Shown in pieces: positions 1,323-13,749 of a stretch of 37,838 bases of DNA. The notes under the pieces are model-generated. The model ran no database searches. It was given only the letters and a program-made list of their open reading frames with translations, and had not been told where the DNA came from. The stretch is from Caldithrix abyssi (lineage in GTDB: Bacteria; Calditrichota; Calditrichia; Calditrichales; Calditrichaceae). The stretch is taken from assembly GCA_011369465.1 (NCBI GenBank), contig DRQG01000097.1, positions 1-37,838 on the forward strand. Reading direction: 5' to 3'. Every line of letters starts with the position of its first letter. The stretch's first letter is position 1. A program made the position numbers and the translations under genes.

Positions 1323-1356
1323 CTTTACTCTGTTAATCAGAACGGTGACAATTCTT

Positions 1357-3555
1357 TTATTTTACACCGAAGATAAGCTGCTCACTCTGTACTTGAAAAT
1401 TGTTGGCAAGTAGTTTATAAGCCCAGTAGTTCTTCATTACCTTCCGAACGTAATCGCGCGTTTCGCTGAATTCAATATTTTCGATAAACACGTCAATCCG
1501 CTCGGACCCTGGTATTTTACGCCAGCGTTTCACCCGGTGCGGCCCGGCGTTGTAGGCAGCCAACATCCACTCTTTGCGGCCATTAAACTGGCGCGCCAGT
1601 TGTTTTAAATAGAGCGAACCCAGATGGATATTTAATTCCGGGTCATACAACTGTCGGTTATCCGATAGCCGGATGCCGGCCAGCCTGGCCATATCTTTTG
1701 CTGTGGAGGGGATAAGCTGCATCAAGCCCCAGGCGTTCGCCCAGGACAGCGCGCCCGGTTCATATTTGCTTTCCTGCTTGATAACCGCAAGAATAAGTTC
1801 CTTTTCCAATCCGTAACGTTTAGCATATTTCTCAATTTCGTTATCGTAATAAAAAGGAAATCGTTCTTTAAGAATAAACGGTTTGAGAACATAGGAGCGG
1901 TCGTTATAGTATTTCCTGTTGATATATTCGTACACCCGGTAAGCCTTACCGTAATCGCCGAACTTTTTATAGATTTCGGCCAATGCAATCCACTCTTCAC
2001 GGGTTTTGGCGCTTAGTTTTATGTCCTTTAAGGCCAGAAGCCCATATTGATGTCCCAATAAATCGCGCACCAAAAAGGCCTTCTCAAAGGCGTCAATCAG
2101 ATTGGCAAAACCGACGGCATAATAGGACAGCGAAGTGGAACTGTTGTGAAATTTTTCCTGCAGATGAAGTTGGTCATCAATATATTCTTTATCCAGCAGG
2201 TAGCTTTTCATCGTATAGTAATCGTCCCAAAGTTCTCCGGCCAGATCGGTGCGCAGACGGCGGGCGGTGAGGGTATCTCCCGTTAAATCACGACAGACCG
2301 CCGACCAGTACTGGGCACGGTTGCGATGGAAATCGGGCCAGTTCGAAAAACGAATCCGCGTAAAAACCTGATCCGCTTCCTGATATTGTTTCAACCGGAA
2401 CAGACTAAAACCCTCGCGGAATTGCGCCTCTTTGGTAAACTCGGAGCGCTTCCATCGTTTTGAGACTTCCCGGTACAGTTTTAGCGCTTCTTCGGGACGT
2501 TTTTGTTCCTCGTAAATCCAGGCCGCCTTCCAGAGGGCCTCCGGCGCTTTACGCCTCCGCGGGAAACTTTTGGCATATTCGGTATAAGCCTGTATGGCAT
2601 TGCGTTTCCGGCCCAGCCGCAGGTAGGAACGAGCCACGTAAAGACGGATATGGGGTTCCAGTTTCGCAGCCTGCGGATCCTTTAACAATTCTTTCATGCC
2701 ATATAATACGGTGCGATAGCGCCCCTGTGCATAATATACTTTAAGCAGTTCAAACCGGGCTTTTGCTTTAGCCTCTTTATCTTTTTCCTGTTTAATAAAC
2801 GTTTCCAGTTTCTTTCTTAAAAGAAGATATTGGCGGTTGCCGGCATAAGCCGGGATCATTGTAAAGAAATTTTCCTTATAAAAATCCGGTTCGTTCTTTT
2901 CCAACCAGATTACCAGCTCATAAACGGCGGGAGAGGAAGGATATTTTTTAATAATTCTCTTAAACTCGCTGAATGCTTTAGACCGGTTCCCCATATAATA
3001 GGAAGCCATGGCCGATTTTACCAGAAAATACCCGTTTTTTTCTTTGCGAACGCCATTTTCTTTGGCTTTCAAAAAATAGCGTCTGGCTTCCGTGTAATGG
3101 TTTTGATTAAAAAACGCCTCGGCAACGGGCGCCAGTAGAGAGTCTGCCAGCGTGTGACGGTTATATTCGGCAATATAACGTACGGCTTCTTCAAGCGCGG
3201 CCGCGGTATCGGCCTCCCACATACTGCGGATGTAAAAATAACGGCTGTATTCCGGAAGAAAATGTTTCCAGACAGCCAGCTTACCGAATATTTTGGCGCT
3301 GCTGTCTTTATTACCGGTACGGAACAAAGCATAGGCAATTTTGAATTCTAAACGGGGATCGTCAATAAGTGGATTGAGAGTTGCATAGCGGTGCAGGGCT
3401 TGTTGATACTGCGCGCCGGCATACAGGCTGTCAGCCTGTTGTATGGCTATTTCGCGATCCAGATGGAGGGCCAGAGGGTTCATTTCGCCCTGGGACACCT
3501 GTCCGGCAAATAGTAGTAAGAGAAAAACGATTTGATATGCCGCTTTGCCATGCAT
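1357..3555 (-). CDS. Soluble lytic murein transglycosylase with TPR-like repeats (Slt family)
   Basis: Periplasmic enzyme that cleaves the MurNAc-GlcNAc bond of peptidoglycan to give 1,6-anhydro ends. The 732-residue protein begins with a signal peptide (residues 1-23, hydrophobic IVFLLLLFAG core). A long helical region of TPR-like repeats (about 30-560) follows, including two clear units with the NAIQAY and EALKLY patterns. The C-terminal SLT domain is at about 575-710. Its catalytic glutamate is E595 in KQESKYEP, followed by the conserved AWGLMQLIPSTA and LAAYNAGP blocks. The size and order match Slt70-type enzymes, in which the helical doughnut guides the glycan strand. The ATG at 3555 is preferred because the signal peptide starts there. 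The gene appears monocistronic, with a candidate promoter 60-90 bases upstream. The family is certain; the physiological partner is unknown. Confidence 0.95.
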   Translation of the reverse strand: MHGKAAYQIVFLLLLFAGQVSQGEMNPLALHLDREIAIQQADSLYAGAQYQQALHRYATLNPLIDDPRLEFKIAYALFRTGNKDSSAKIFGKLAVWKHFLPEYSRYFYIRSMWEADTAAALEEAVRYIAEYNRHTLADSLLAPVAEAFFNQNHYTEARRYFLKAKENGVRKEKNGYFLVKSAMASYYMGNRSKAFSEFKRIIKKYPSSPAVYELVIWLEKNEPDFYKENFFTMIPAYAGNRQYLLLRKKLETFIKQEKDKEAKAKARFELLKVYYAQGRYRTVLYGMKELLKDPQAAKLEPHIRLYVARSYLRLGRKRNAIQAYTEYAKSFPRRRKAPEALWKAAWIYEEQKRPEEALKLYREVSKRWKRSEFTKEAQFREGFSLFRLKQYQEADQVFTRIRFSNWPDFHRNRAQYWSAVCRDLTGDTLTARRLRTDLAGELWDDYYTMKSYLLDKEYIDDQLHLQEKFHNSSTSLSYYAVGFANLIDAFEKAFLVRDLLGHQYGLLALKDIKLSAKTREEWIALAEIYKKFGDYGKAYRVYEYINRKYYNDRSYVLKPFILKERFPFYYDNEIEKYAKRYGLEKELILAVIKQESKYEPGALSWANAWGLMQLIPSTAKDMARLAGIRLSDNRQLYDPELNIHLGSLYLKQLARQFNGRKEWMLAAYNAGPHRVKRWRKIPGSERIDVFIENIEFSETRDYVRKVMKNYWAYKLLANNFQVQSEQLIFGVK

Positions 3556-3573
3556 TCTGTTATACCGCCTTCT

Positions 3574-3591
3574 TTAAGAAATCTTTCTTAA
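3574..3591. promoter_or_regulatory. Perfect dyad in leader of the transglycosylase gene
   Basis: TTAAGAAA-TC-TTTCTTAA is an 18-bp palindrome lying between the candidate promoter and the ATG at 3555. With a 2-base centre it would not form a good RNA hairpin, so a protein operator is the likelier reading. There is no direct evidence for a regulator. Confidence 0.3.
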
Positions 3592-3612
3592 TAGTCGATA
3601 CCTCTACTGCTA

Positions 3613-3641
3613 ATATAAGTATATAACCGGACGGTGGACAA
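3613..3641 (-). promoter_or_regulatory. Candidate sigma-70 promoter for the transglycosylase gene
   Basis: On the minus strand TTGTCC (3636-3641) and TTATAT (3613-3618) are separated by 17 bases. The -10 match is only moderate. It lies about 60 bases upstream of the start codon in a short AT-rich spacer. Confidence 0.4.
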
Positions 3642-3803
3642 ATTCGTGATATGTCTCACCCAAAGTGGATGATTTGTACATTCTTTTAAATAAACGCAAA
3701 CTGCCTATTAAATAATTCATTAAATATTACAGAGCTAACACAAACCCGGATGGAAGCCATTGCTGTCTCTGCATTTTTTATGAGAATTTTGGTAGGAGTG
3801 GCG

Positions 3804-6239
3804 CTAAACTTCCGTTATTCTGATAATGATCATCGTCATGTCGTCGCGCTGTCCTTTTTTACCGGCAAATTTATCCACCTCGGCATAGACGCGATCCAGT
3901 ATATCCTGCACGGGTAATTCTTTATATTCCGCCAATAAACGCTGCAGGCGTTCCTCTCCGAATTCCTTTTCCGAACTGTCCATTGCCTCATTCAATCCAT
4001 CCGTATAAAAGACGAAGATGTCATCTTTGTGCAGAGTCAGCGTAATCTCTTCGATGATTTCATCAAAAATCGGCCCTTTTTCCAGCCCTAAAGCCAATCC
4101 GTCCGGTTGAAGGATTTCCGGTTGGCTGTTTCCGGATGGAATCCGGAGGATGGGGTTATGACCGGCGCGTGCTATGGTTCCCTTGCCATTTTCCACATCG
4201 AATACGGCGTAAACCATGCTGATAAACGTATTGCGCCGGGCGTTTTCAAAAAACAGGGCATTCATTTCACTGAGAATGCGTTTTGGCGAATCCTGTTGTC
4301 GGCTCACCGCTCTTAAAAATCCTTTGGTGAGGGTCATATAAAAGGCCGCCTGGGTGCCTTTACCGGCCACATCGCCGATGGCTACGCCCAATTTACTTCG
4401 GTTCAACTGCACGAAATCATAGTAATCGCCGCCCACTTCAAGCGCCGGTACGCAACGGGCGGCAATATCCAATCCCGGAATCCGGGGCATTTGATCGGGC
4501 AAGAAGCTCATCTGTACCTCGCGGGCGATTTCCAGTTCCCTCTGCAAGCGCTGGCGTTCATTAATAAACTTAACGTAGCGGGGGGTGATACGGGTATAAT
4601 CGCCGAGTGAGTCGCGCGTCAGAACAGCAGCTACCGCATAAGCAAGCGTGACTGCAAAACCGACTATATAAGTCCATCCAAAGCCATCCTGACCGAACAC
4701 TAAAAACAATCCGCCTTTACTGAGCTGGAATACATAGAAAGCGACCGCCACAGTAAGAAAATCAAAGCGGAAAACAGATAGCGTAAAAAGCAGACCGACA
4801 ACCGCCATAATTAACAGTCCTGTCCATTGCGGGCTGAACACATCGTAAAAAACCAGCGAAAAGACAACGACCGTTATACTAATAAAGAAGACGGGGATAT
4901 TTACCCATTTACGCAGCAACCCCGGAATAACCAGGAAAGAAAATAACGAAGCCGCCAGAGCATAGGAAACATTTCTGAAAGCCAGGTACAATCCCGGTTC
5001 CGCTGCTGTTGCAAAGACGATATTGCTATCGGTGAGATAAAGAAAAGATATGTCAAAAAAATAATCGGCAGCGGCTGCACCAACTAACAATACTGCAAGC
5101 GTTGAAAGCCCCAGAGAAATCCCGCGAATCAAACTCGTGCCGATATGCGAATCCAGTATATAACCGTTTAGAAGCAAATCCACGGTAAGCAGTTTTTCGT
5201 TCCAAACTTCCCGTATGAGCGATTCCGAAGTCATCCAAAGAACAAAAATACCCAGACCGATAAAAATGGGTCCCAGGATGATTTCAAAGATATTTCCCCA
5301 ATAAAAGGGATAAGATAAACTAAGAAGTATTCCGAAAAAAGTCGCCGCTGCGCTTAGTATTCCCAATTTTATAGCCAGCTTAAAACCGATTTCGTAGGAG
5401 CGGACACGTTTGAACCATAAAATGCTTAAGGCAATAAAAAATCCAAGATAAACCAGGATCATCAACATCTTAGCGATAAAATGGGGAGCCTGCGGTTCTG
5501 CTTCCGGTATGTCCAATTCCTGCGTCAATTTGACAATTTGATCGCCCACCATGGCCAGGCGAATTTTCATCGTATCCGGCATAGCCTCTATGGGAATATG
5601 ACGGACAAATTCATAGTCCACCCTGTTTTTCCCGGGCGCTTTGCTATCCCCTGCCGATCCGCCTTCATCCACAGCACGGGCGGAAATCTCAAAGCTGGAA
5701 TCCAATCGGCTGGTATCAGCGAAAAGACGGATATTGCTAAAATGTTCCAAAAATCGGTTTGCAATCTGGGCTGCTTCCTGTTTGCTCACCGAGCGGACAC
5801 GTCCGGTATCGGCAATGGTACGATCGAGCCCGATTAAATTACCCCTGGTATCAAATTTCAGCTGAAACGATTTAATGATTTTATTAACCTGATTTTCATC
5901 CCCGTTGTTATTGCTCACTGAAAAAATATTGGTTGGCACCCAGCGTACGTCATAATAATAGCCGTTTACCTGTTTGCGAAGCAGTGCGTTGGCTTTCTGC
6001 AACCCCACAGTTTTCTGGACATATTTGATGAGATTGGCATTCTGCTCCAGTTTAACGATGGGATGATACTCCGATACGTCCATGGAAAAGAGAAAAGCCA
6101 GTTCCTGCGCTGTACGGATGATCTTATCCGAACCAGCATTCTGATTAAGCCCCATCAGAGGATAATACCGGGGATACAAAGCGAATAATATTATGCCTGC
6201 CAGCAAGATGAATAAAAAATATGATTTAAGTGCCCGCAT
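3804..6239 (-). CDS. Membrane-bound PP2C/SpoIIE-type serine/threonine phosphatase
   Basis: Likely dephosphorylates a partner protein, in known systems an anti-sigma-factor antagonist. The 811-residue protein has an N-terminal membrane anchor (about 8-25) and a soluble region to about 255 that probably faces the periplasm and matches no family I recognise. A block of about eight to nine membrane helices follows (about 255-535), then a short coiled coil with RELEIAREVQMSFLP, the usual linker of RsbU-like enzymes. The phosphatase domain (about 590-811) keeps its metal ligands in EVGGDYYDF, IGDVAGKG, AGHNP, FYTDGLNEA and QRDDMT. No anti-sigma factor or STAS partner is encoded nearby, so the target is unknown. 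The ATG at 6239 has GAGG just upstream. Confidence 0.9.
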   Translation of the reverse strand: MRALKSYFLFILLAGIILFALYPRYYPLMGLNQNAGSDKIIRTAQELAFLFSMDVSEYHPIVKLEQNANLIKYVQKTVGLQKANALLRKQVNGYYYDVRWVPTNIFSVSNNNGDENQVNKIIKSFQLKFDTRGNLIGLDRTIADTGRVRSVSKQEAAQIANRFLEHFSNIRLFADTSRLDSSFEISARAVDEGGSAGDSKAPGKNRVDYEFVRHIPIEAMPDTMKIRLAMVGDQIVKLTQELDIPEAEPQAPHFIAKMLMILVYLGFFIALSILWFKRVRSYEIGFKLAIKLGILSAAATFFGILLSLSYPFYWGNIFEIILGPIFIGLGIFVLWMTSESLIREVWNEKLLTVDLLLNGYILDSHIGTSLIRGISLGLSTLAVLLVGAAAADYFFDISFLYLTDSNIVFATAAEPGLYLAFRNVSYALAASLFSFLVIPGLLRKWVNIPVFFISITVVVFSLVFYDVFSPQWTGLLIMAVVGLLFTLSVFRFDFLTVAVAFYVFQLSKGGLFLVFGQDGFGWTYIVGFAVTLAYAVAAVLTRDSLGDYTRITPRYVKFINERQRLQRELEIAREVQMSFLPDQMPRIPGLDIAARCVPALEVGGDYYDFVQLNRSKLGVAIGDVAGKGTQAAFYMTLTKGFLRAVSRQQDSPKRILSEMNALFFENARRNTFISMVYAVFDVENGKGTIARAGHNPILRIPSGNSQPEILQPDGLALGLEKGPIFDEIIEEITLTLHKDDIFVFYTDGLNEAMDSSEKEFGEERLQRLLAEYKELPVQDILDRVYAEVDKFAGKKGQRDDMTMIIIRITEV

Positions 6240-6294
6240 TTCAATCCTCAGTAAAACTAAAGAGATAAAGCCATGTGTAATATTTACTTTTTAC

Positions 6295-6323
6295 TATTTA
6301 AGCATTTGAATGATTAATTTCAA
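6295..6323 (-). promoter_or_regulatory. Candidate sigma-70 promoter for the phosphatase gene
   Basis: TTGAAA (6318-6323) and TAAATA (6295-6300) on the minus strand are separated by 17 bases, in the AT-rich 125-base spacer upstream of the start at 6239. Only sequence resemblance supports it. Confidence 0.35.
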
Positions 6324-6364
6324 CAGAAATGACGGGATATTAGTGGTTTGTATATAAAAGAAAT

Positions 6365-8170
6365 TCAGGAAAGTGCCGAAGCCGCAGCGACGGAAAGGTT
6401 AATTTCCATTGATGAATTCTTACTGAGCGCTTTGCTAAAATCGGCGTAGCTGACCGGCCTGCCGAACAGAAAACCCTGGTATTTTGTACATTTGTATTTA
6501 TCCAGGATCTGTAACTGATGGACATCCTCCACTCCTTCGGCAATAATATCCAACTTCAGATTCTTACTCAGTTGAATAATAGATCGTATCATCTCCCTGT
6601 GTTGTCGGTTATTTTCCAGGTTGTTCACAAAGGCGCGGTCGATCTTTATGGCAGTGGCGGGTACCCGTTGCAGGTACGACATGGAAGCATAGCCCGAGCC
6701 AAAATCGTCGATGGCAATCCGGACGCCCAGATCGATTAAAGCATGCAGGTTCCTAATAACCCGTTCGTCCTGTTCCAGATAGCTGGTTTCCGTAAGCTCG
6801 AATTGAAGCATCCGGGGATTGATATCCAGGGTTTCAATCAATTCACGAATAAGGCCTATTAATTTATTGGAATGTAACTGTTTGGTGGAAAGATTTACCG
6901 AAAGATAAAATTCCCGGTTTCCGGTAATTTGATAAAAATTCCTGTACTCGTACAATGATCGTTCCAGCACCCATTGGCCTATGGGAATAATCAAATTGCT
7001 TTTTTCAGCGATGGGGATAAATTGAGACGGAGGAACCATCCCGCTATCAGGGCTTTTCCAGCGAATCAGCGCTTCTCCGCCGGCAATACGAAAATGATTG
7101 TCATTTTCCTTTTCGAAAATGGGCTGATAAACAATATGCATTTGCTCATTAAAAACACCTTTTACTACCAGTTCGCGCAGATTCTTTTCCAGCTGCATCG
7201 TACGTGAAGCAGTTTGAGAAATCTGATCCGAGTAAAAACGATAGCCATCCTTGCCCTGTTTTTTGGCCAGATACATCGCCGTATCGGCCTTTTTTATGAG
7301 GAGTTCACGATTTGTTCCGTTTTGCGGCATGAGCACGATTCCCACACTGGCGCTCAGATAGTTAATCGTTGTCTGATTAATGATATAGGGTTGCGAAATG
7401 GCTGCTATCAGTTTTTGTGCCACCAAACCGGCTTCATAGTCGTTTTTTAAATTCTTCAGGATAACCACAAATTCGTCCCCGCCGAGTCGGTAGATTCGGT
7501 CGGATTTCCGCAATGTTTCCCGCAAGCGCCGGCTCACCTCCTGCAGCACCCGGTCACCGTAATCGTGTCCAAGCGAATCGTTGACCAGCTTAAAGTTATC
7601 CAGATCACAGAAAAGCAACGCCACCGTTGTCTTTTCGGGCAGTCGTTCCAATTCCATTAAAACCTGGTCTAATTGTTCGTTAAAAGCGTCCCTGTTAAAC
7701 AGACCGGTTAATTTATCGTGATAAGCCAGATATTTCAGTTCTTTTTGGGCGTGCACTACAGCGGTAAGATCGCTGCCAAACAATGCCACATAAGCGCCGT
7801 CGGCAAAAGGTTGTGCGAAACGTTTATAGTAACGGGTTTTATCGGTTCTTGCCAGATAAATACCTTCCGTAAAATGGACAATGCGTTTTTCGGCCAGGGC
7901 TTTTTGCCGGTTTTCTTCCCTCTTTTTCAGCGGGCCGGTTTCCGCACCGATTTGGGAAAAGTAAAAATAATCATCCCTACCGGGTAATTGCCGGCGCAGC
8001 ATTTCATCGGGACAATAATACTCGTTTACGAATATATATTTCCCATCGCGGTCGTAAACCGCAACTTCCATGGGCAATTTGCGCAGCAGATAGTCGCTGT
8101 CAAAAGGCTCTGCATTTTCCGAATATTGTTTCAATATCCGGATAGCCAGTCTTATTAGCCATCTTTTCAT
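6365..8170 (-). CDS. PAS-GGDEF-EAL protein, cyclic-di-GMP synthesis/degradation
   Basis: Cytosolic 601-residue protein with domains for making and hydrolysing cyclic di-GMP. An N-terminal PAS-like segment lies at about 30-145 (EVAVYDRDGKYIFVN). The GGDEF domain is intact (RLGGDEFVV, GGDEF at about 230-234) and carries an inhibitory I-site RKSD five residues upstream. The EAL domain keeps the residues required for hydrolysis: EALIRW (E366), SVNLSTKQL, FELTET, DDFGSGYAS, KIDRAFV, AEGVED and QGFLFG. Neither catalytic motif is degenerate, so both activities are possible and the PAS domain may set the balance. No transmembrane segment is apparent. The gene stands alone between the phosphatase gene and the PATAN operon, and the start at 8170 lacks an obvious Shine-Dalgarno sequence. 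Confidence 0.95.
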   Translation of the reverse strand: MKRWLIRLAIRILKQYSENAEPFDSDYLLRKLPMEVAVYDRDGKYIFVNEYYCPDEMLRRQLPGRDDYFYFSQIGAETGPLKKREENRQKALAEKRIVHFTEGIYLARTDKTRYYKRFAQPFADGAYVALFGSDLTAVVHAQKELKYLAYHDKLTGLFNRDAFNEQLDQVLMELERLPEKTTVALLFCDLDNFKLVNDSLGHDYGDRVLQEVSRRLRETLRKSDRIYRLGGDEFVVILKNLKNDYEAGLVAQKLIAAISQPYIINQTTINYLSASVGIVLMPQNGTNRELLIKKADTAMYLAKKQGKDGYRFYSDQISQTASRTMQLEKNLRELVVKGVFNEQMHIVYQPIFEKENDNHFRIAGGEALIRWKSPDSGMVPPSQFIPIAEKSNLIIPIGQWVLERSLYEYRNFYQITGNREFYLSVNLSTKQLHSNKLIGLIRELIETLDINPRMLQFELTETSYLEQDERVIRNLHALIDLGVRIAIDDFGSGYASMSYLQRVPATAIKIDRAFVNNLENNRQHREMIRSIIQLSKNLKLDIIAEGVEDVHQLQILDKYKCTKYQGFLFGRPVSYADFSKALSKNSSMEINLSVAAASALS

Positions 8171-8344
8171 GGTAAGTCATCAAAATGAGAAATAGAATAC
8201 GTTCTATTGATTATAGCGGTATTTCGACTTTTATTTCAAAATAATTAGTATTGAAAGCATTTCAGATCAGTTGTTTTCTAAATCGGGGACAAAAGAACTA
8301 ATATGGAAGAAACAAAGGAATGTACTGCTTTTATCCACTTTGCC

Positions 8345-8357
8345 GGTAACCGTTACC
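8345..8357. promoter_or_regulatory. Short dyad in spacer upstream of the GGDEF-EAL gene
   Basis: GGTAAC-C-GTTACC is a perfect 6-1-6 dyad about 180 bases upstream of the start codon at 8170, in a 286-base spacer without a convincing gene. It is too tight for an RNA hairpin and could be an operator half-site pair. Chance occurrence is not excluded. Confidence 0.2.
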
Positions 8358-8456
8358 CGGATTTTGTATGCGCCTGCGATATGTTTTACGATAGAAAATA
8401 AAAAACACGGTGATTCTGAAGGGTATTACATTTGGGGAATCGTACCGGAGGGGATT

Positions 8457-8930
8457 TTACTTTTCTACTTCCTCCCGTCTTTCGGTGAATTGCTTTAAAG
8501 CACTAAGCAGAGTTTTTATAACGCCGTTTTCTTCGTCCGAATTAAAGTAAAAAACGGATTCGTTGTCCTCTTGCGCCAAATCGTTACTTTTGTCTTCCAC
8601 GCTTTTGTCAAACGGAATAAATATAAAATATGGTGTTGCATATTTGCGTTCATACTGGGTGATCAGGTCTTGCACGGTATGGTTTATTTCTTCAACAAGA
8701 AAAAGCGTAAACGGTGCTCTGGGAATAGTACGATCCCAGATAGATTGCGTAAAATAATCTTCCTGTTTATCCAAAATATAGAAATATACCGATTTCTCTT
8801 TATCGATCTCAAATTCAATATGCCGAAAACCCCGATAACTGCGATCAGTAGAAACTTGCAGGCTTTGTATAAATTCTTTATCCAAATCATTCAGCATGTG
8901 GATAACCGGTATTTCGAGAATCTGGCTCAC
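8457..8930 (-). CDS. Small protein resembling a P-loop-dead small GTPase, third gene of PATAN operon
   Basis: 157 residues with no motif I can name outright. Its first half can be laid against the GTPase-like domain of the protein encoded at 10069-11715. The segment around DKEFIQSL falls where that protein has GKSDFIQHL, but the Walker A glycines are replaced. A conserved strand pattern follows (HIEFEID, VYFYILD, FTLFLVEE, YFIFIPFD), as in the beta strands of MglA/COG2229-like GTPases. I infer a nucleotide-binding-dead paralogue that might pair with, or regulate, the active-looking domain. The tail (about 115-157) is acidic, then helical. The start overlaps the stop of the preceding gene by 4 nt (ATGA), so translation is coupled. 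The alignment is by eye only; a novel fold remains possible. Confidence 0.8.
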   Translation of the reverse strand: MSQILEIPVIHMLNDLDKEFIQSLQVSTDRSYRGFRHIEFEIDKEKSVYFYILDKQEDYFTQSIWDRTIPRAPFTLFLVEEINHTVQDLITQYERKYATPYFIFIPFDKSVEDKSNDLAQEDNESVFYFNSDEENGVIKTLLSALKQFTERREEVEK

Positions 8931-10072
8931 GACAATTCCTCCAAAGCCTGAATGAAATCATCAAGTGTACTGTATTGATTGAACAGATATGATCTGCGGG
9001 TGACGCTTACGGCCATTTCTTCTTCTTCAAACTGTTTGGAAGATTCCCCGCTATCCGGATGTTTGGGAGCGCTTTTCTTATCTGATTTAGTAAATATTTT
9101 GTTGACCATCTTTCGTATTCCGGATTCTTCCTTCTCTTTTTGCAGTTGTTTCAATTTTTTCTCAAAGGCGTCTTTATCCAAAAGCCAGCCGTCTTTTATC
9201 CATTGTATCATCCGCTCCAAAACAGGAATCGATTTTTCGGAATAGTTTTCCAGAAATTTTTGGATGGTATTGCCTTCTTTGAACAGCAACAGCACATTCC
9301 GGTTGGTTGGGCCCATTTCTTCGTAATCCAGGTCGGGACTGGCATACAACACTTTATTTTCCGCAGGCAGACGGGCAAGCAGCCTGTACTGCATATTGAT
9401 ATGGTTGAGACATTCCAGTATAATTTGCTGGTTGTCCAGCAGAATACGCTTGGTGTGTTTTTCCTTGTCCAGTTGCGTCCAGAAGCGCCCGTAAAACCAG
9501 GTAGCCATTACTTCGATAGCTTCCAGGGGATCGCGCTTGGCCAGCCGGGCGTTTACTATTTTCCCTTTGTTGAATTCGATGCGGCCCCGCTGCGCCCCTT
9601 TCTGTAAATGAAGCACACCGTTTTTATTACCCTCTTCAAAAGAATGAATCAGGTCGATCAGGTTCAGGTCTTCCAGTCTGCCGCGCATTTCCCAGCGATC
9701 GGGCCCTTTATCCGTATCCGTTCCTAAGAAGGATTTGAGACGATATTCCAGTTCCTTGCGGTTCATGGGAAAGCAGAACAGATCGGCAGCACCTTTTTTC
9801 CATAGTTCGAGCCGTTTTTCTTTTTGCAGCAAACCGCTGCAGCAAATGAAAGGTATTTCCGTTTCGGCCACTATATAGGCATCCACCCATTGGGTCAGTT
9901 CCTGAAAATCCTCATTAATCAGTAGTACGATAGCCGGATTTTCTATGGGGATGTTTTCAAGCGCATCTCCCAGCTCCCCGCCCCAGGAAAAATGCACCGG
10001 AAGATGCCCCAGATGTTGATTAAATAGATGAAAATGATCTTCGTTATGACTTACAATCAAAAAATCTCTCAT
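8927..10072 (-). CDS. Pseudo-receiver plus PATAN (DUF4388) signalling protein
   Basis: 381 residues, cytosolic. Residues 1-117 have the alternating beta/alpha pattern of a response-regulator receiver. The residues needed for phosphorylation are lost: SHNED stands where the acidic pair is expected, INED at the acceptor strand, and CFPMN replaces the conserved Lys-Pro. Residues about 131-225 form a PATAN/DUF4388 domain (GRLEDLNLIDLIHSF ... GVLHLQKG ... GRIEFNKGKIVNARL). A winged-helix-like segment follows (about 275-315, EGNTIQKFLENYSEKS ... WIKDGWLL), then a charged linker and a short C-terminal tail. It lies between the two other operon genes with ATGA overlaps at both junctions, implying stoichiometric synthesis and probably a complex. 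PATAN proteins of known function relay signals in gliding and phototaxis systems; the role here is unknown. Confidence 0.9.
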   Translation of the reverse strand: MRDFLIVSHNEDHFHLFNQHLGHLPVHFSWGGELGDALENIPIENPAIVLLINEDFQELTQWVDAYIVAETEIPFICCSGLLQKEKRLELWKKGAADLFCFPMNRKELEYRLKSFLGTDTDKGPDRWEMRGRLEDLNLIDLIHSFEEGNKNGVLHLQKGAQRGRIEFNKGKIVNARLAKRDPLEAIEVMATWFYGRFWTQLDKEKHTKRILLDNQQIILECLNHINMQYRLLARLPAENKVLYASPDLDYEEMGPTNRNVLLLFKEGNTIQKFLENYSEKSIPVLERMIQWIKDGWLLDKDAFEKKLKQLQKEKEESGIRKMVNKIFTKSDKKSAPKHPDSGESSKQFEEEEMAVSVTRRSYLFNQYSTLDDFIQALEELS

Positions 10073-11715
10073 TCCGTAAGGGCTTCCTCACTGTTTTCTT
10101 CGGATTGGGTTTCAATAGCCGGATTGTCCGGTTCGATTTTTTCCTGTATGGGCTCCTCGGCCTCTTCTTCTGCTGCCTCATTCTCACCATCCTCTTTTTT
10201 TGCAGGAAGGGTTACCGGCTCCATGGCCAGAAGAACATCGTGAATGCTGCGGATATCAGCAGGATTACAAGGTACCCAGTTAAAAATAAATTGGGTGCTA
10301 AATTTACTGCGAACCGAATCGATCAAATCCGGTGAGGGCATCTCGGTGACCGCCGCCACACAAGACACAGGATACATACTGAGCAAATGATTGATAACAT
10401 AATTAACATATTCATAGGTATCCTGTTCAAGATAACTGATCAGAAAAATGTATCCCACCAGTCCCTCGGACAGTTTCTCCGTAGTTTCCATCACCATCTG
10501 GTCCACGGTCATCCCAAAAAGCAGCAGGTCCAGATCGGTACTCAAAGTAACGCGGGCGACCTCCAGGTCTTTTGCTTCGGGCGCCTGATTTTTAGCGCCG
10601 GTAAGATGTTGGATAAAATCCGATTTACCCGAAAGGCGCGAGCCCAGAACGACAATTTTCCCGGTGTTTTCACCCTCTATATGTAAGTTGACCTTTAGCT
10701 GTTGGATCTCAAACTGGTTGAGTATCAATTCATTTAACGCTGCCTGAGCGGATGGAATCGCCTCCGGTACCGCTTCGAACACGCTGCGATGCGGCTGGTT
10801 TACCTGTAATAATTTATCTTCTTTCAGGACAACCAGCTTTTCTGCGGTTTCATAACAGGTGTACACCGGATTATCCAGTGCTTCTTCCAATAGCAGCGGT
10901 TTTTTAATGAGTTGAAGGAAAGATTCTTCGATTTCCGGATGGAGAGCGCGAACATCGCCCAGATGGATAACGCGCAGGGTGCTGTTTAACGTACCGATTT
11001 TTTTCAGGTTTTCCAGAAATGATTTGCGGCGTTTTTCTGCCAGTAATACCAAACCGATATTGCTTAACGCGATATTGTTTTTCGGTTTTACTGTTTCGGA
11101 AGCGGTAAAAAAGAAATCCCCCTTATTCCAGTACAGCATGTGCAAAACCGCCTCTTTGCCGGTGTGGCCATTCACCCAGGCATCGTCTATGTTCCCGGTA
11201 TAAAAATAGATCTTCCCGCTGCTGGCGGAAGTAACCAGCTTTAACACGCCTGTACGTTTTTCTTTTCCCAGCGAGCTGATCAGCTTGGCCAGCGGGATAT
11301 CTTCCAGACGTCCTCTGGAATATAAGGCGTCCTTTTCATCCTCTGTACTAACCGATTTCAACACCCATCGGGTGGCATAGAATATTTCTTCCGGAGCGCC
11401 GGATCGCTCAAAAACCCGACGGGCGCCCAATTCGTAGAAGGCCATACGCCGGTTGGCGTTCTCCGGTACATTATAAACTACGATATTGCGCCGGGAAATC
11501 TGTTGAAAAAAACGTATCACATTGGTTCGCTCGGCCTGAACGATAACGTCATAATCGATTAAAAACAGGACAACATTCTCATCGGGAATGGATTCATCCT
11601 CGGAAGGAATGACCTGCCGTTTTTCTACCTCATATCCTTCGCTGCCATACAGTTCGGTAAGCCGGTTGATGTCGGTTGCGGTGTCGTGAAATATGTAGAT
11701 TTTTCTTTCGGACAT
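10069..11715 (-). CDS. Pseudo-receiver / PATAN (DUF4388) / small-GTPase-like fusion
   Basis: 548 residues, first gene of the operon. The N-terminal receiver-like domain (about 1-125) keeps an Asp in LFLIDYD but lacks the acidic pair and the conserved Lys. A PATAN/DUF4388 domain follows (about 135-230, GRLEDIPLAKLISSLG ... GKIYFYTGNIDDAWV), then a helical/winged segment. A GTPase-like domain (about 352-510) has a good Walker A, GSRLSGKS (358-365). Its downstream motifs are degenerate: GMTVDQ occupies the place of the usual GTPGQ switch-II motif of MglA/COG2229 GTPases, and VTEMP replaces NKxD, so nucleotide specificity is uncertain. The last 45 residues are a Glu-rich, probably disordered tail. 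A good promoter lies upstream, and AAGGAT precedes the ATG at 11715. Confidence 0.9.
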   Translation of the reverse strand: MSERKIYIFHDTATDINRLTELYGSEGYEVEKRQVIPSEDESIPDENVVLFLIDYDVIVQAERTNVIRFFQQISRRNIVVYNVPENANRRMAFYELGARRVFERSGAPEEIFYATRWVLKSVSTEDEKDALYSRGRLEDIPLAKLISSLGKEKRTGVLKLVTSASSGKIYFYTGNIDDAWVNGHTGKEAVLHMLYWNKGDFFFTASETVKPKNNIALSNIGLVLLAEKRRKSFLENLKKIGTLNSTLRVIHLGDVRALHPEIEESFLQLIKKPLLLEEALDNPVYTCYETAEKLVVLKEDKLLQVNQPHRSVFEAVPEAIPSAQAALNELILNQFEIQQLKVNLHIEGENTGKIVVLGSRLSGKSDFIQHLTGAKNQAPEAKDLEVARVTLSTDLDLLLFGMTVDQMVMETTEKLSEGLVGYIFLISYLEQDTYEYVNYVINHLLSMYPVSCVAAVTEMPSPDLIDSVRSKFSTQFIFNWVPCNPADIRSIHDVLLAMEPVTLPAKKEDGENEAAEEEAEEPIQEKIEPDNPAIETQSEENSEEALTE

Positions 11716-11756: not shown

Positions 11757-11785
11757 AATTTAGCTGTTACAATGAGTTATGTCAA
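11757..11785 (-). promoter_or_regulatory. Sigma-70-type promoter of the PATAN/GTPase operon
   Basis: On the minus strand a perfect TTGACA (11780-11785) and TAAATT (11757-11762) are separated by exactly 17 bases, about 45 bases upstream of the first start codon. It lies wholly inside the 77-base gap after the methyltransferase gene, so the three-gene operon can be transcribed independently of the genes upstream. The same two hexamers and spacing recur at 28035-28063. Confidence 0.7.
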
Positions 11786-11792
11786 GGATTGA

Positions 11793-12329
11793 TCATTTTA
11801 TCCGTAAATACTGCTGTAACACATGGTACAACACGATCCCAAATGCCACACTTACATTAAGCGACTGCTTGATGCCCAGCATTGGTAACTCGACAGCAAA
11901 ATCAGCTTCTTTAACCACTTCTTGCGAGAGACCTTCTACCTCGTTGCCCACCAGCAGACAAACAGGAAAACTATATTCGACCTGAGCATAATTGACGCTT
12001 GTGTTGGTGTGTTCTACCGCGGCTATTTTTACGCCTTGTTCTTTTAAGGCCTTGAGCACCGGAAGCGGATTTTTACTGTATTCCCACGGGACGCTTTCGG
12101 TGGCACCCAATGCGGTTTTATCGATTTCTCTACGGGGAGGAACGGGAGTAAACCCGGTGAGAAACAATTTAGTAATGCGCGCACCGTCCCCACTGCGAAA
12201 AATACTGCCCACATTATGCATACTGCGAATGTTTTCCGCCAGCACATAAATAGGAAGCCGTTCCAGTTTTTGTAATTCTTTAAGGGTGGGACGTTTGCTG
12301 AAGATTTCTTCGTATGTAAGTTTACGCAT
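11793..12329 (-). CDS. SpoU/TrmH-family RNA 2'-O-methyltransferase
   Basis: SAM-dependent ribose methyltransferase of the SPOUT (trefoil-knot) class acting on tRNA or rRNA. All three family motifs are present in 178 residues: motif 1 (NIRSMHNVGSIFRSGDG, with the Asn and Arg thought to be catalytic), motif 2 (LLVGNEVEGLS) and motif 3 (ELPMLGIKQSLNVSVAFGIVLY), which forms the knot. The protein is short and lacks the N-terminal L30e-like substrate-binding domain of RlmB-type enzymes, so it is closer to TrmH/TrmL-sized proteins. The exact target nucleotide cannot be read from the sequence. It starts only 7 bases after the stop of the uracil methyltransferase gene, so the two are probably co-transcribed. 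Confidence 0.92.
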   Translation of the reverse strand: MRKLTYEEIFSKRPTLKELQKLERLPIYVLAENIRSMHNVGSIFRSGDGARITKLFLTGFTPVPPRREIDKTALGATESVPWEYSKNPLPVLKALKEQGVKIAAVEHTNTSVNYAQVEYSFPVCLLVGNEVEGLSQEVVKEADFAVELPMLGIKQSLNVSVAFGIVLYHVLQQYLRIK

Positions 12330-12336
12330 ACAATCG

Positions 12337-13749
12337 TTATTTCTCCTGTTTGAGGCTTAGCTTGACCACAGTCTCGATATGATACGTCTGCGGAAACATA
12401 TCAACCGGTTGAACGGTATCCACCCGGTATTTTTGAGCTAAAATAGCCAGATCGCGCGCCAGTGTTGTGGGATTACAGGAGACGTAAACGATGCGATGCG
12501 GCGCTATTTCGTTAATATAGCGCACAACTTTTTCGTGCATTCCTGCCCGGGGAGGATCGGTTACCAGAACATCCGGTTTGGGTTCGGTTTCTTCCAGCCG
12601 GTGCAGCAGGTCGCCGCCCACAAAACGGGCGTTATACACCTCATGCTGGCGGGCATTTTCCGCCGCATCGGCTACCGCGCTTTCAGCCAGTTCAAAGCCG
12701 ATGACTTGTGCGGCTTGACGGGCCAGAAACATACTTATGGTTCCCGTTCCGGCATACAAATCCCACACCACTTCCCTGCCTTGTAGTTCGGCAAATGTCA
12801 TCACCGTATCGTACAGGCGTTCAGCTTGCCGCGTATTGGTCTGAAAGAATGAATTGGCGGAAATCTGAAAAACAAATGGTCCCAGTTTTTCCTGAATATA
12901 CGGAAGGCCTCTTAACAAAATTTCCTTTTCGCCCACGGCGATCTGAGCTTTGCGTGTGTTGATGTTGTTCACCACTCCGGCGATGTTTTCCACCTGTTCG
13001 AACAGGATATCGGCCAGTTTTTTAAGCGGTTCTACCTGCTCGTAAGCGGTTACGATATTCACCATCAATCCGCCGTCATAAGCGCTCTCGCGCAGAACCA
13101 AAAAACGCAGAAACCCCTCGTGTGACCGGACGCCGTAGGGCTGCAAGCCTTCCCGTTGACTGAATTCGGAAACGATTTGCAGTACCCGGTTGGCCCGTTC
13201 CGATTGCAGCATACAATGATTCACCTGGATAATTTTGTCGAAGGTGCCGGGAACATGCAGCCCCAAAGCAAAATCACGCCGTACCGTTTCATCGCCCAGT
13301 TCGTCGGCAGTCAGCCAGCGCCGATCGGAAAAAGAGAATTCCATTTTATTGCGGTAGGCAAATTCCCTGTCCGAAGCCAAAACAGGCAGAACCTCTACAT
13401 CCTCCACCCCGCCAATGTGCTTCAAGGATTCCCGCACAATATCCTGTTTGTATCGCAACTGATCGGCATACCGCAGATTTTGCCAGGTACATCCGCCGCA
13501 CCATTCAAAATAGGGACACGGCGGCTTTTGCCGCAGGGGCGAGGGTTGTTCAATTTCCAGCAATCGTGCTTCTGCATAAGCCGTTTTCCGTTTCCTGATC
13601 CGCGCTCGCACCGTTTCGCCCGGCAGGGCGTCTTTTACAAAAATAACATAATTATCCAGCCGGGCCACACCGGCGCCGCCGAAAGCTAATTTTTCGATGT
13701 ACAGGGTATACTCACCGTTACGCTTAACGGGATATTTCGGATCGCTCAA
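12337..13749 (-). CDS. rlmD: RNA (uracil-5-)-methyltransferase, RlmD/RumA family
   Basis: Transfers a methyl group from SAM to C5 of a uracil in RNA (U1939 of 23S rRNA in the E. coli enzyme). Residues 1-65 form a TRAM-like beta domain (LAFGGAGVARLDNYVIFVKDALPGE). Cys78, Cys84 and Cys87 (CPYFEWCGGC) with Cys179 are placed to bind a 4Fe-4S cluster. The SAM-binding motif is VWDLYAGTGTISMFLA. DPPRAG, the nucleophile Cys425 (VSCNPTTLARDL) and Glu459 (HIETV) complete the active site. The 470-residue length is normal. The start is a TTG at 13749 with GAAGG about seven bases upstream. The family is secure, but which uracil is modified (U1939, U747 or a tRNA site) is not. Confidence 0.93.
   Translation of the reverse strand: MSDPKYPVKRNGEYTLYIEKLAFGGAGVARLDNYVIFVKDALPGETVRARIRKRKTAYAEARLLEIEQPSPLRQKPPCPYFEWCGGCTWQNLRYADQLRYKQDIVRESLKHIGGVEDVEVLPVLASDREFAYRNKMEFSFSDRRWLTADELGDETVRRDFALGLHVPGTFDKIIQVNHCMLQSERANRVLQIVSEFSQREGLQPYGVRSHEGFLRFLVLRESAYDGGLMVNIVTAYEQVEPLKKLADILFEQVENIAGVVNNINTRKAQIAVGEKEILLRGLPYIQEKLGPFVFQISANSFFQTNTRQAERLYDTVMTFAELQGREVVWDLYAGTGTISMFLARQAAQVIGFELAESAVADAAENARQHEVYNARFVGGDLLHRLEETEPKPDVLVTDPPRAGMHEKVVRYINEIAPHRIVYVSCNPTTLARDLAILAQKYRVDTVQPVDMFPQTYHIETVVKLSLKQEK

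Follow-up and report, generated by a model that had tools for sequence, protein, structure and literature searches.

A phylum-wide Calditrichota operon of PATAN proteins and GTPase-fold domains that look like pseudoGTPases

The question raised by this locus of Caldithrix abyssi is whether three overlapping genes, which combine receiver-like, PATAN and GTPase-like domains, encode a GTP-driven switch or a complex of another kind. The initial annotation favored the former, an active/inactive GTPase pair in which the first protein (A) would cycle between GTP and GDP, the third (C) would be its dead regulatory partner and the PATAN domains would act as adaptors, with polarity or surface motility as a tentative purpose. 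As discussed in the following sections, the A-B-C operon is real, phylum-wide and structurally explained, and the evidence suggests a conserved scaffold or signalling complex with no classical GTP switch. The architecture of the operon is well supported, and its function is something that we infer. The window, meaning the whole stretch of DNA that was analysed, is one 37.8-kb contig from a 4.3-Mb draft genome, and the operon, its candidate promoter and the two genes upstream lie on its minus strand.

Layout of the operon and its conservation across Calditrichota

Gene A (10069-11715; 548 aa) encodes a pseudo-receiver, a DUF4388/PATAN domain, a winged-helix-like segment, a GTPase-like domain and an acidic disordered tail. 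Gene B (8927-10072; 381 aa) encodes a pseudo-receiver, a DUF4388/PATAN domain and a winged-helix-like segment, followed by a basic amphipathic segment, an acidic linker and a short C-terminal motif, while gene C (8457-8930; 157 aa) is a stand-alone small-GTPase fold that lacks a P-loop and is homologous to the third domain of A. Three genes joined by two ATGA overlaps had been described, and the genes and the 4-nt overlaps stand, but only the A/B overlap (10069-10072) is ATGA; the B/C overlap (8927-8930) reads GTGA, because C starts with a GTG codon. This start is preceded by GGAGG, and the C genes of relatives begin at the same point. Transcription of the operon had been assigned to one good promoter. 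A candidate, TTGACA-17-TAAATT (11757-11785), is indeed suitably placed upstream of A, but promoter-like matches are not commoner in the region than chance would provide (8 found against 9.2 expected).

Clear evidence that this arrangement is conserved comes from a set of 40 Calditrichota genomes. The third domain of A and gene B were each found in 37 of them and gene C in 38; A-B-C is present in single copy in 37-38 of the 40. C is present in each of the 23 genomes with a completeness of 90% or more and a contamination of 5% or less, and the two genomes that lack A, B and C altogether (G023 and G027) are drafts of 86-88% completeness. The initial annotation had made its reading depend on finding the same gene order in related genomes, and nearly all of the 40 have A-B-C in this order, the genes overlapping or lying very close together; A and B are separated by 25 nt or less in 34 of 35 cases and B and C by 50 nt or less in 31 of 32. 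In G032, C sits at a contig start. With the gene order retained almost throughout the phylum, a chance arrangement is excluded. The sole look beyond the phylum was a pattern scan, which returned no loci with protein A alone and, with closer rows, 14 confirmed loci, all of them from Calditrichota.

GTPase folds in gene C and in the third domain of A

Gene C has no convincing Pfam match over its 157 residues, and its fold was assigned by three routes. Profile-profile comparison (hhalign) aligned C with the GTPase-like domain of A at 96.4% (E 1.2e-9, 141 columns), whereas the controls, drawn from 16 unrelated families and from the remaining domains of A and B, gave at most 2.2% with the exception of the B receiver (51.9%). 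The AlphaFold2 model of C (pLDDT 83.7, pTM 0.80) has the beta-alpha order of a small GTPase. Finally, all 50 PDB matches listed for that model are small GTPases or GTPase domains, among them the FeoB G domain, Rab, Ras, Rho and Arl, with a best E value of 2e-6. The high score against the B receiver prompted us to consider C as a receiver-like domain, a candidate that was rejected since C scores 0.1% against true receivers and, among the structure matches listed, every one is a GTPase.

These results confirm that C is a small-GTPase fold homologous to the third domain of A. The by-eye alignment of FIQSL in C with FIQHL in that domain reflects real homology, as judged from the profile match, the predicted fold and the structure matches, and the earlier view of the 157-residue protein as a P-loop-dead relative of the A domain is likewise borne out, including the small-GTPase prediction that had been named as a check on it. 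When an HMM of C was run against the six-frame ORFs of the loci (3,693 in all), it found only C genes, three B-C fusions and the A third domain, and across the 40 whole genomes the C profile matched, besides C itself, only the A domain, in three genomes. The one P-loop remnant kept by any C is GSRYSGKE, at the expected position in G022 (L084). C would make up a new family, one whose fold is assigned.

The corresponding domain of A is a degenerate, Arf-like small-GTPase domain (residues 338-501; 10213-10704). A profile of its family finds members of the Arf/Arl/Sar group, Arl3 and Sar1, among PDB sequences (6e-5 and weaker); Pfam Arf scores above its cut-off for the A domains of G022, G025 and G026, and the AlphaFold model of the domain matches Arf-family structures at about 1e-6. 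The model of the whole A chain reaches a pTM of only 0.40, too low to place its domains relative to one another. Descent from the phylum's own MglA was tested and not supported, the profile match being 1.3% with a shallow MglA alignment. The best local matches of the A domain are, weakly, stand-alone Rup-type and similar small GTPases. A Rup-like operon is present in the same genome (L162, G000:C92:4500-11500, positions 1343-4837 of that stretch), where a large coiled-coil protein, a 173-aa Ras-family GTPase with intact motifs and a PAS-sigma54-type AAA protein are encoded.

How much of the nucleotide-binding machinery is left? The sequence GSRLSGKS was correctly placed in the GTPase-like domain of the first gene, at residues 358-365 of A (10621-10644), and the altered GMTVDQ and VTEMP were also read correctly; they sit where G3 and G4 should be. 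The P-loop is not conserved in the family. Among 36 A sequences, GKS/T is found in seven (the window and six other genomes) and GRS in six, and the motif is lost in 23. No A sequence of the 36 has a G3 DxxG or a G4 [NT]KxD. Mapped onto a tree built from the N-terminal part, with a slightly relaxed P-loop pattern, retention and loss require six changes, at least four of which are forced by well-supported branches.

This pattern bears directly on the active/inactive pair. The intact P-loop of the window, the GKS/T and GRS motifs of twelve other genomes and the Arf-family matches of the A domain are what a cycling GTPase would lead one to expect, but with DxxG and NKxD missing from every A sequence, and with the P-loop lost repeatedly while the operon itself was conserved, that proposal does not hold up as originally made and we regard it as very unlikely. 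Since the P-loop is gone from 23 of the 36 A sequences and DxxG and NKxD from all, nucleotide binding is not what keeps the domain in most of the phylum. Both C and the third domain of A look like pseudoGTPases, in which the GTPase fold is kept and the catalytic motifs are lost.

That said, to judge from its sequence the intact P-loop of A could still bind a nucleotide in genomes like that of the window. A could then act as a nucleotide sensor in such lineages, binding without hydrolysis, and would have lost even binding in the others. Retention of the P-loop is patchy, and its clustering on the tree exceeds that of shuffled labels, which is compatible with this idea, and there is a eukaryotic precedent in the pseudoGTPase domain of p190RhoGAP, which binds GTP without hydrolysing it (PMC10211241). 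Without the Mg-binding Asp of DxxG and a base-specificity motif, though, we consider a sensor of this kind unlikely.

Two copies of one plan

The description of A and B as two proteins with degenerate receivers and PATAN/DUF4388 domains was accurate. DUF4388 lies behind the receiver-like domain in both A (residues 135-229; 11029-11313; 46 bits, E 5e-12) and B (residues 131-225; 9398-9682; 51 bits, E 2e-13), well above the Pfam cut-off of 25, and was matched in 29 of 30 B rows. The receiver-like domains of A and B match true PhoB receivers at 97-98% in profile comparison, yet neither protein retains the set of residues that marks a phosphorylatable response regulator (acidic pair, acceptor Asp, Thr/Ser and Lys). 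In the window, the receiver-like domain of A (residues 1-123; 11347-11715) has Asp54 at the acceptor position, with Asn at the Thr/Ser position and no conserved Lys. Across the phylum the acceptor Asp occurs in 13 of 36 A sequences and in no B, and the conserved Lys in neither.

B is a paralogue of A residues ~1-325. Profile-profile matches between the two proteins reach 96.6% for the receiver-like domain, 99.7% for PATAN and 92.6% for the winged-helix-like segment, and A and B form separate clades, each of them phylum-wide; the separation is full apart from one row (L091_B), which is an A gene. Because A and B are paralogous over this part, B together with C matches A domain by domain, like a split second copy. 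Fused B-C genes do occur, in G008, G009 and G010 only, and since all three genomes fall inside the window's family, the fusion is more likely a derived state. Origin of A by fusion and origin of B and C by fission are both compatible with the data. The C part of the G008 fusion (L069/L105) contains an in-frame TAA, for which mutation and sequencing error are not distinguished. The B profile also matches a 240-260 aa receiver-DUF4388 protein (G000:C142:59721-60425), which has counterparts in nearly every genome.

The part of B that follows the shared plan has features of its own. The basic amphipathic segment GIRKMVNKIFTKSD (residues 318-331; 9080-9121), a candidate membrane-binding helix, is present in all 36 B rows once L091_B is left out, with a mean charge of +3.4, and its hydrophobic moment lies at a median 93rd percentile of its own protein, an argument from composition. 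Amphipathic membrane-targeting helices are found in other bacterial proteins, such as MinD, and by analogy the B segment may be a membrane anchor. B also has a conserved C-terminal motif, YLFNQYSTLDDFIQALEEL (8933-8989), and of the three B-C fusions, two keep a similar SLFN motif directly ahead of C.

Possible function, neighbours and related systems

Taken as a whole, we see about an even chance that A and B-C form a membrane-anchored, nucleotide-independent scaffold or localisation hub, perhaps feeding the MglA/MglB system. There would be one complex in which a single plan (pseudo-receiver, PATAN/DUF4388, winged-helix-like segment and GTPase-like domain) is present twice, first as a single chain, A, and then as B plus C, split over two genes. 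Both GTPase-fold domains would act as protein-binding modules, perhaps with A pairing with C; the basic amphipathic segment of B would tie the complex to the membrane, and the PATAN domains and pseudo-receivers would bind partners, giving a scaffold or localisation hub that needs neither phosphorylation nor a GTP cycle. Among possible partners, the canonical MglA/MglB polarity cluster that these genomes also encode, and in which DUF4388-roadblock proteins are likewise used, would be the likeliest. A more ambitious version, which we put forward tentatively and think rather less probable, would make this heteromeric pseudoGTPase scaffold a core component of Calditrichota, derived from a receiver-PATAN-GTPase unit that was duplicated before the phylum diversified, then split and stripped of enzymatic activity, and organising polarity or the envelope without GTP or phosphoryl switching.

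The choice of MglA/MglB as partner is the weakest step, the argument for it being one of domain company. Elsewhere in the genome of the window, a cluster encodes a true MglA (E 5e-69 against crystallised MglA) together with a roadblock protein that resembles MglB and a DUF4388-roadblock protein, and PATAN genes are sometimes found near mglA/mglB (PMC4316618). This cluster (L156, G000:C110:9000-20939, positions 3980-9298) encodes a cache-HAMP sensor, roadblock proteins and the DUF4388-roadblock protein, and further holds a CheY-like receiver and a PAS histidine kinase. Roadblock matches occur in 40 of 40 genomes. Since A-B-C and MglA/MglB are both nearly universal in the phylum, their co-occurrence is no test of a link between them.

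A SpoU-family RNA methyltransferase gene (11793-12329) lies upstream of A in most genomes, and a TRAM-containing RNA uracil-5-methyltransferase (12337-13749) is also a conserved neighbour; these do not suggest a polarity role and count against it. Together with the winged-helix-like segments, the methyltransferase pair raises the alternative that the operon has a role in transcription or RNA metabolism, regulating RNA modification or working with it. The spacing between methyltransferase and A is loose, however (median 103 nt, range 8-398), when compared with the overlaps within the operon, the adjacency is missing in G031, and no nucleic-acid-binding family scores above its cut-off for A, B or C, all of which makes such a role highly improbable. 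In seven genomes a PhoB/PhoR-type pair follows the operon. Beside it in the window (3804-8170) are genes for a GGDEF-EAL protein and for a membrane protein that has a SpoIIE-type phosphatase domain, neither of which is conserved next to the operon in relatives.

Another possibility is that the operon is devoted to regulating type IV pili or another form of motility, in the manner of the cyanobacterial PATAN regulators, which act on type IV pili (PMC7690835) and among which PixE binds the pilus motor PilB1. A PilT-family match is present in 32 of the 40 genomes. Three rather complete drafts (G014, 94% complete; G022, 92%; G031, 100%) nevertheless have the operon while lacking both a PilT-family match at E 1e-60 and flagellin, and though absence from a draft is not proof, this weakens a purely motility role, which we consider unlikely.

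The nucleotide-independent scaffold can be set beside several known systems. MglA/MglB, a Ras-like GTPase and its roadblock GAP, works with RomR and FrzS and likewise joins a GTPase-fold protein to receiver-type partners, of which FrzS has a non-phosphorylatable receiver (PMC11580455). It differs in that the operon encodes no roadblock protein for an MglA-type GTPase to pair with, and that its GTPase-like domain is fused to REC-PATAN, lacks G3 and G4 and, as noted, hardly matches the phylum's MglA. The cyanobacterial PATAN response regulators (PatA, PixE, PixG and LsiR) resemble A and B in carrying receiver and PATAN in one protein, but in A and B both receivers are degenerate, an extra GTPase-fold domain is present, and two paralogues share the operon with a stand-alone GTPase-fold protein. 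Actinobacterial conservons and Rup systems likewise bring a small GTPase and signalling proteins together in a conserved operon (PMC4316618), whereas the A-B-C operon is without a histidine kinase, roadblock, coiled-coil or OmpA component.

Comparable too are the eukaryotic pseudoGTPases, such as CENP-M, Rnd proteins and the middle domains of p190RhoGAP, which also have a GTPase fold without working nucleotide motifs and use it for protein binding, scaffolding or allostery (PMC10211241); the present proteins are bacterial, are encoded in an operon with PATAN/receiver proteins and are related to them at the superfamily level. In the open-access literature pseudoGTPases are described mainly from eukaryotes, DUF4388 is hardly named, and pseudo-GTPase and MglA were not found joined, while here a pair is kept as a single-copy operon in nearly a whole bacterial phylum. 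The interest of the operon lies in its being a conserved pseudoGTPase system of bacteria rather more than in an active/inactive GTPase switch, and its products are candidates for a core complex of a phylum whose cell biology has hardly been studied by experiment. The fusion proteins and the graded loss of the P-loop provide a natural series for studying the role of a GTPase fold after nucleotide binding is gone. PATAN seems to be paired in another way in the same genome as well: at L167 (G000:C128:10000-20000, positions 3564-6108), tandem genes resemble cyclic-nucleotide-binding plus DUF4388 proteins.
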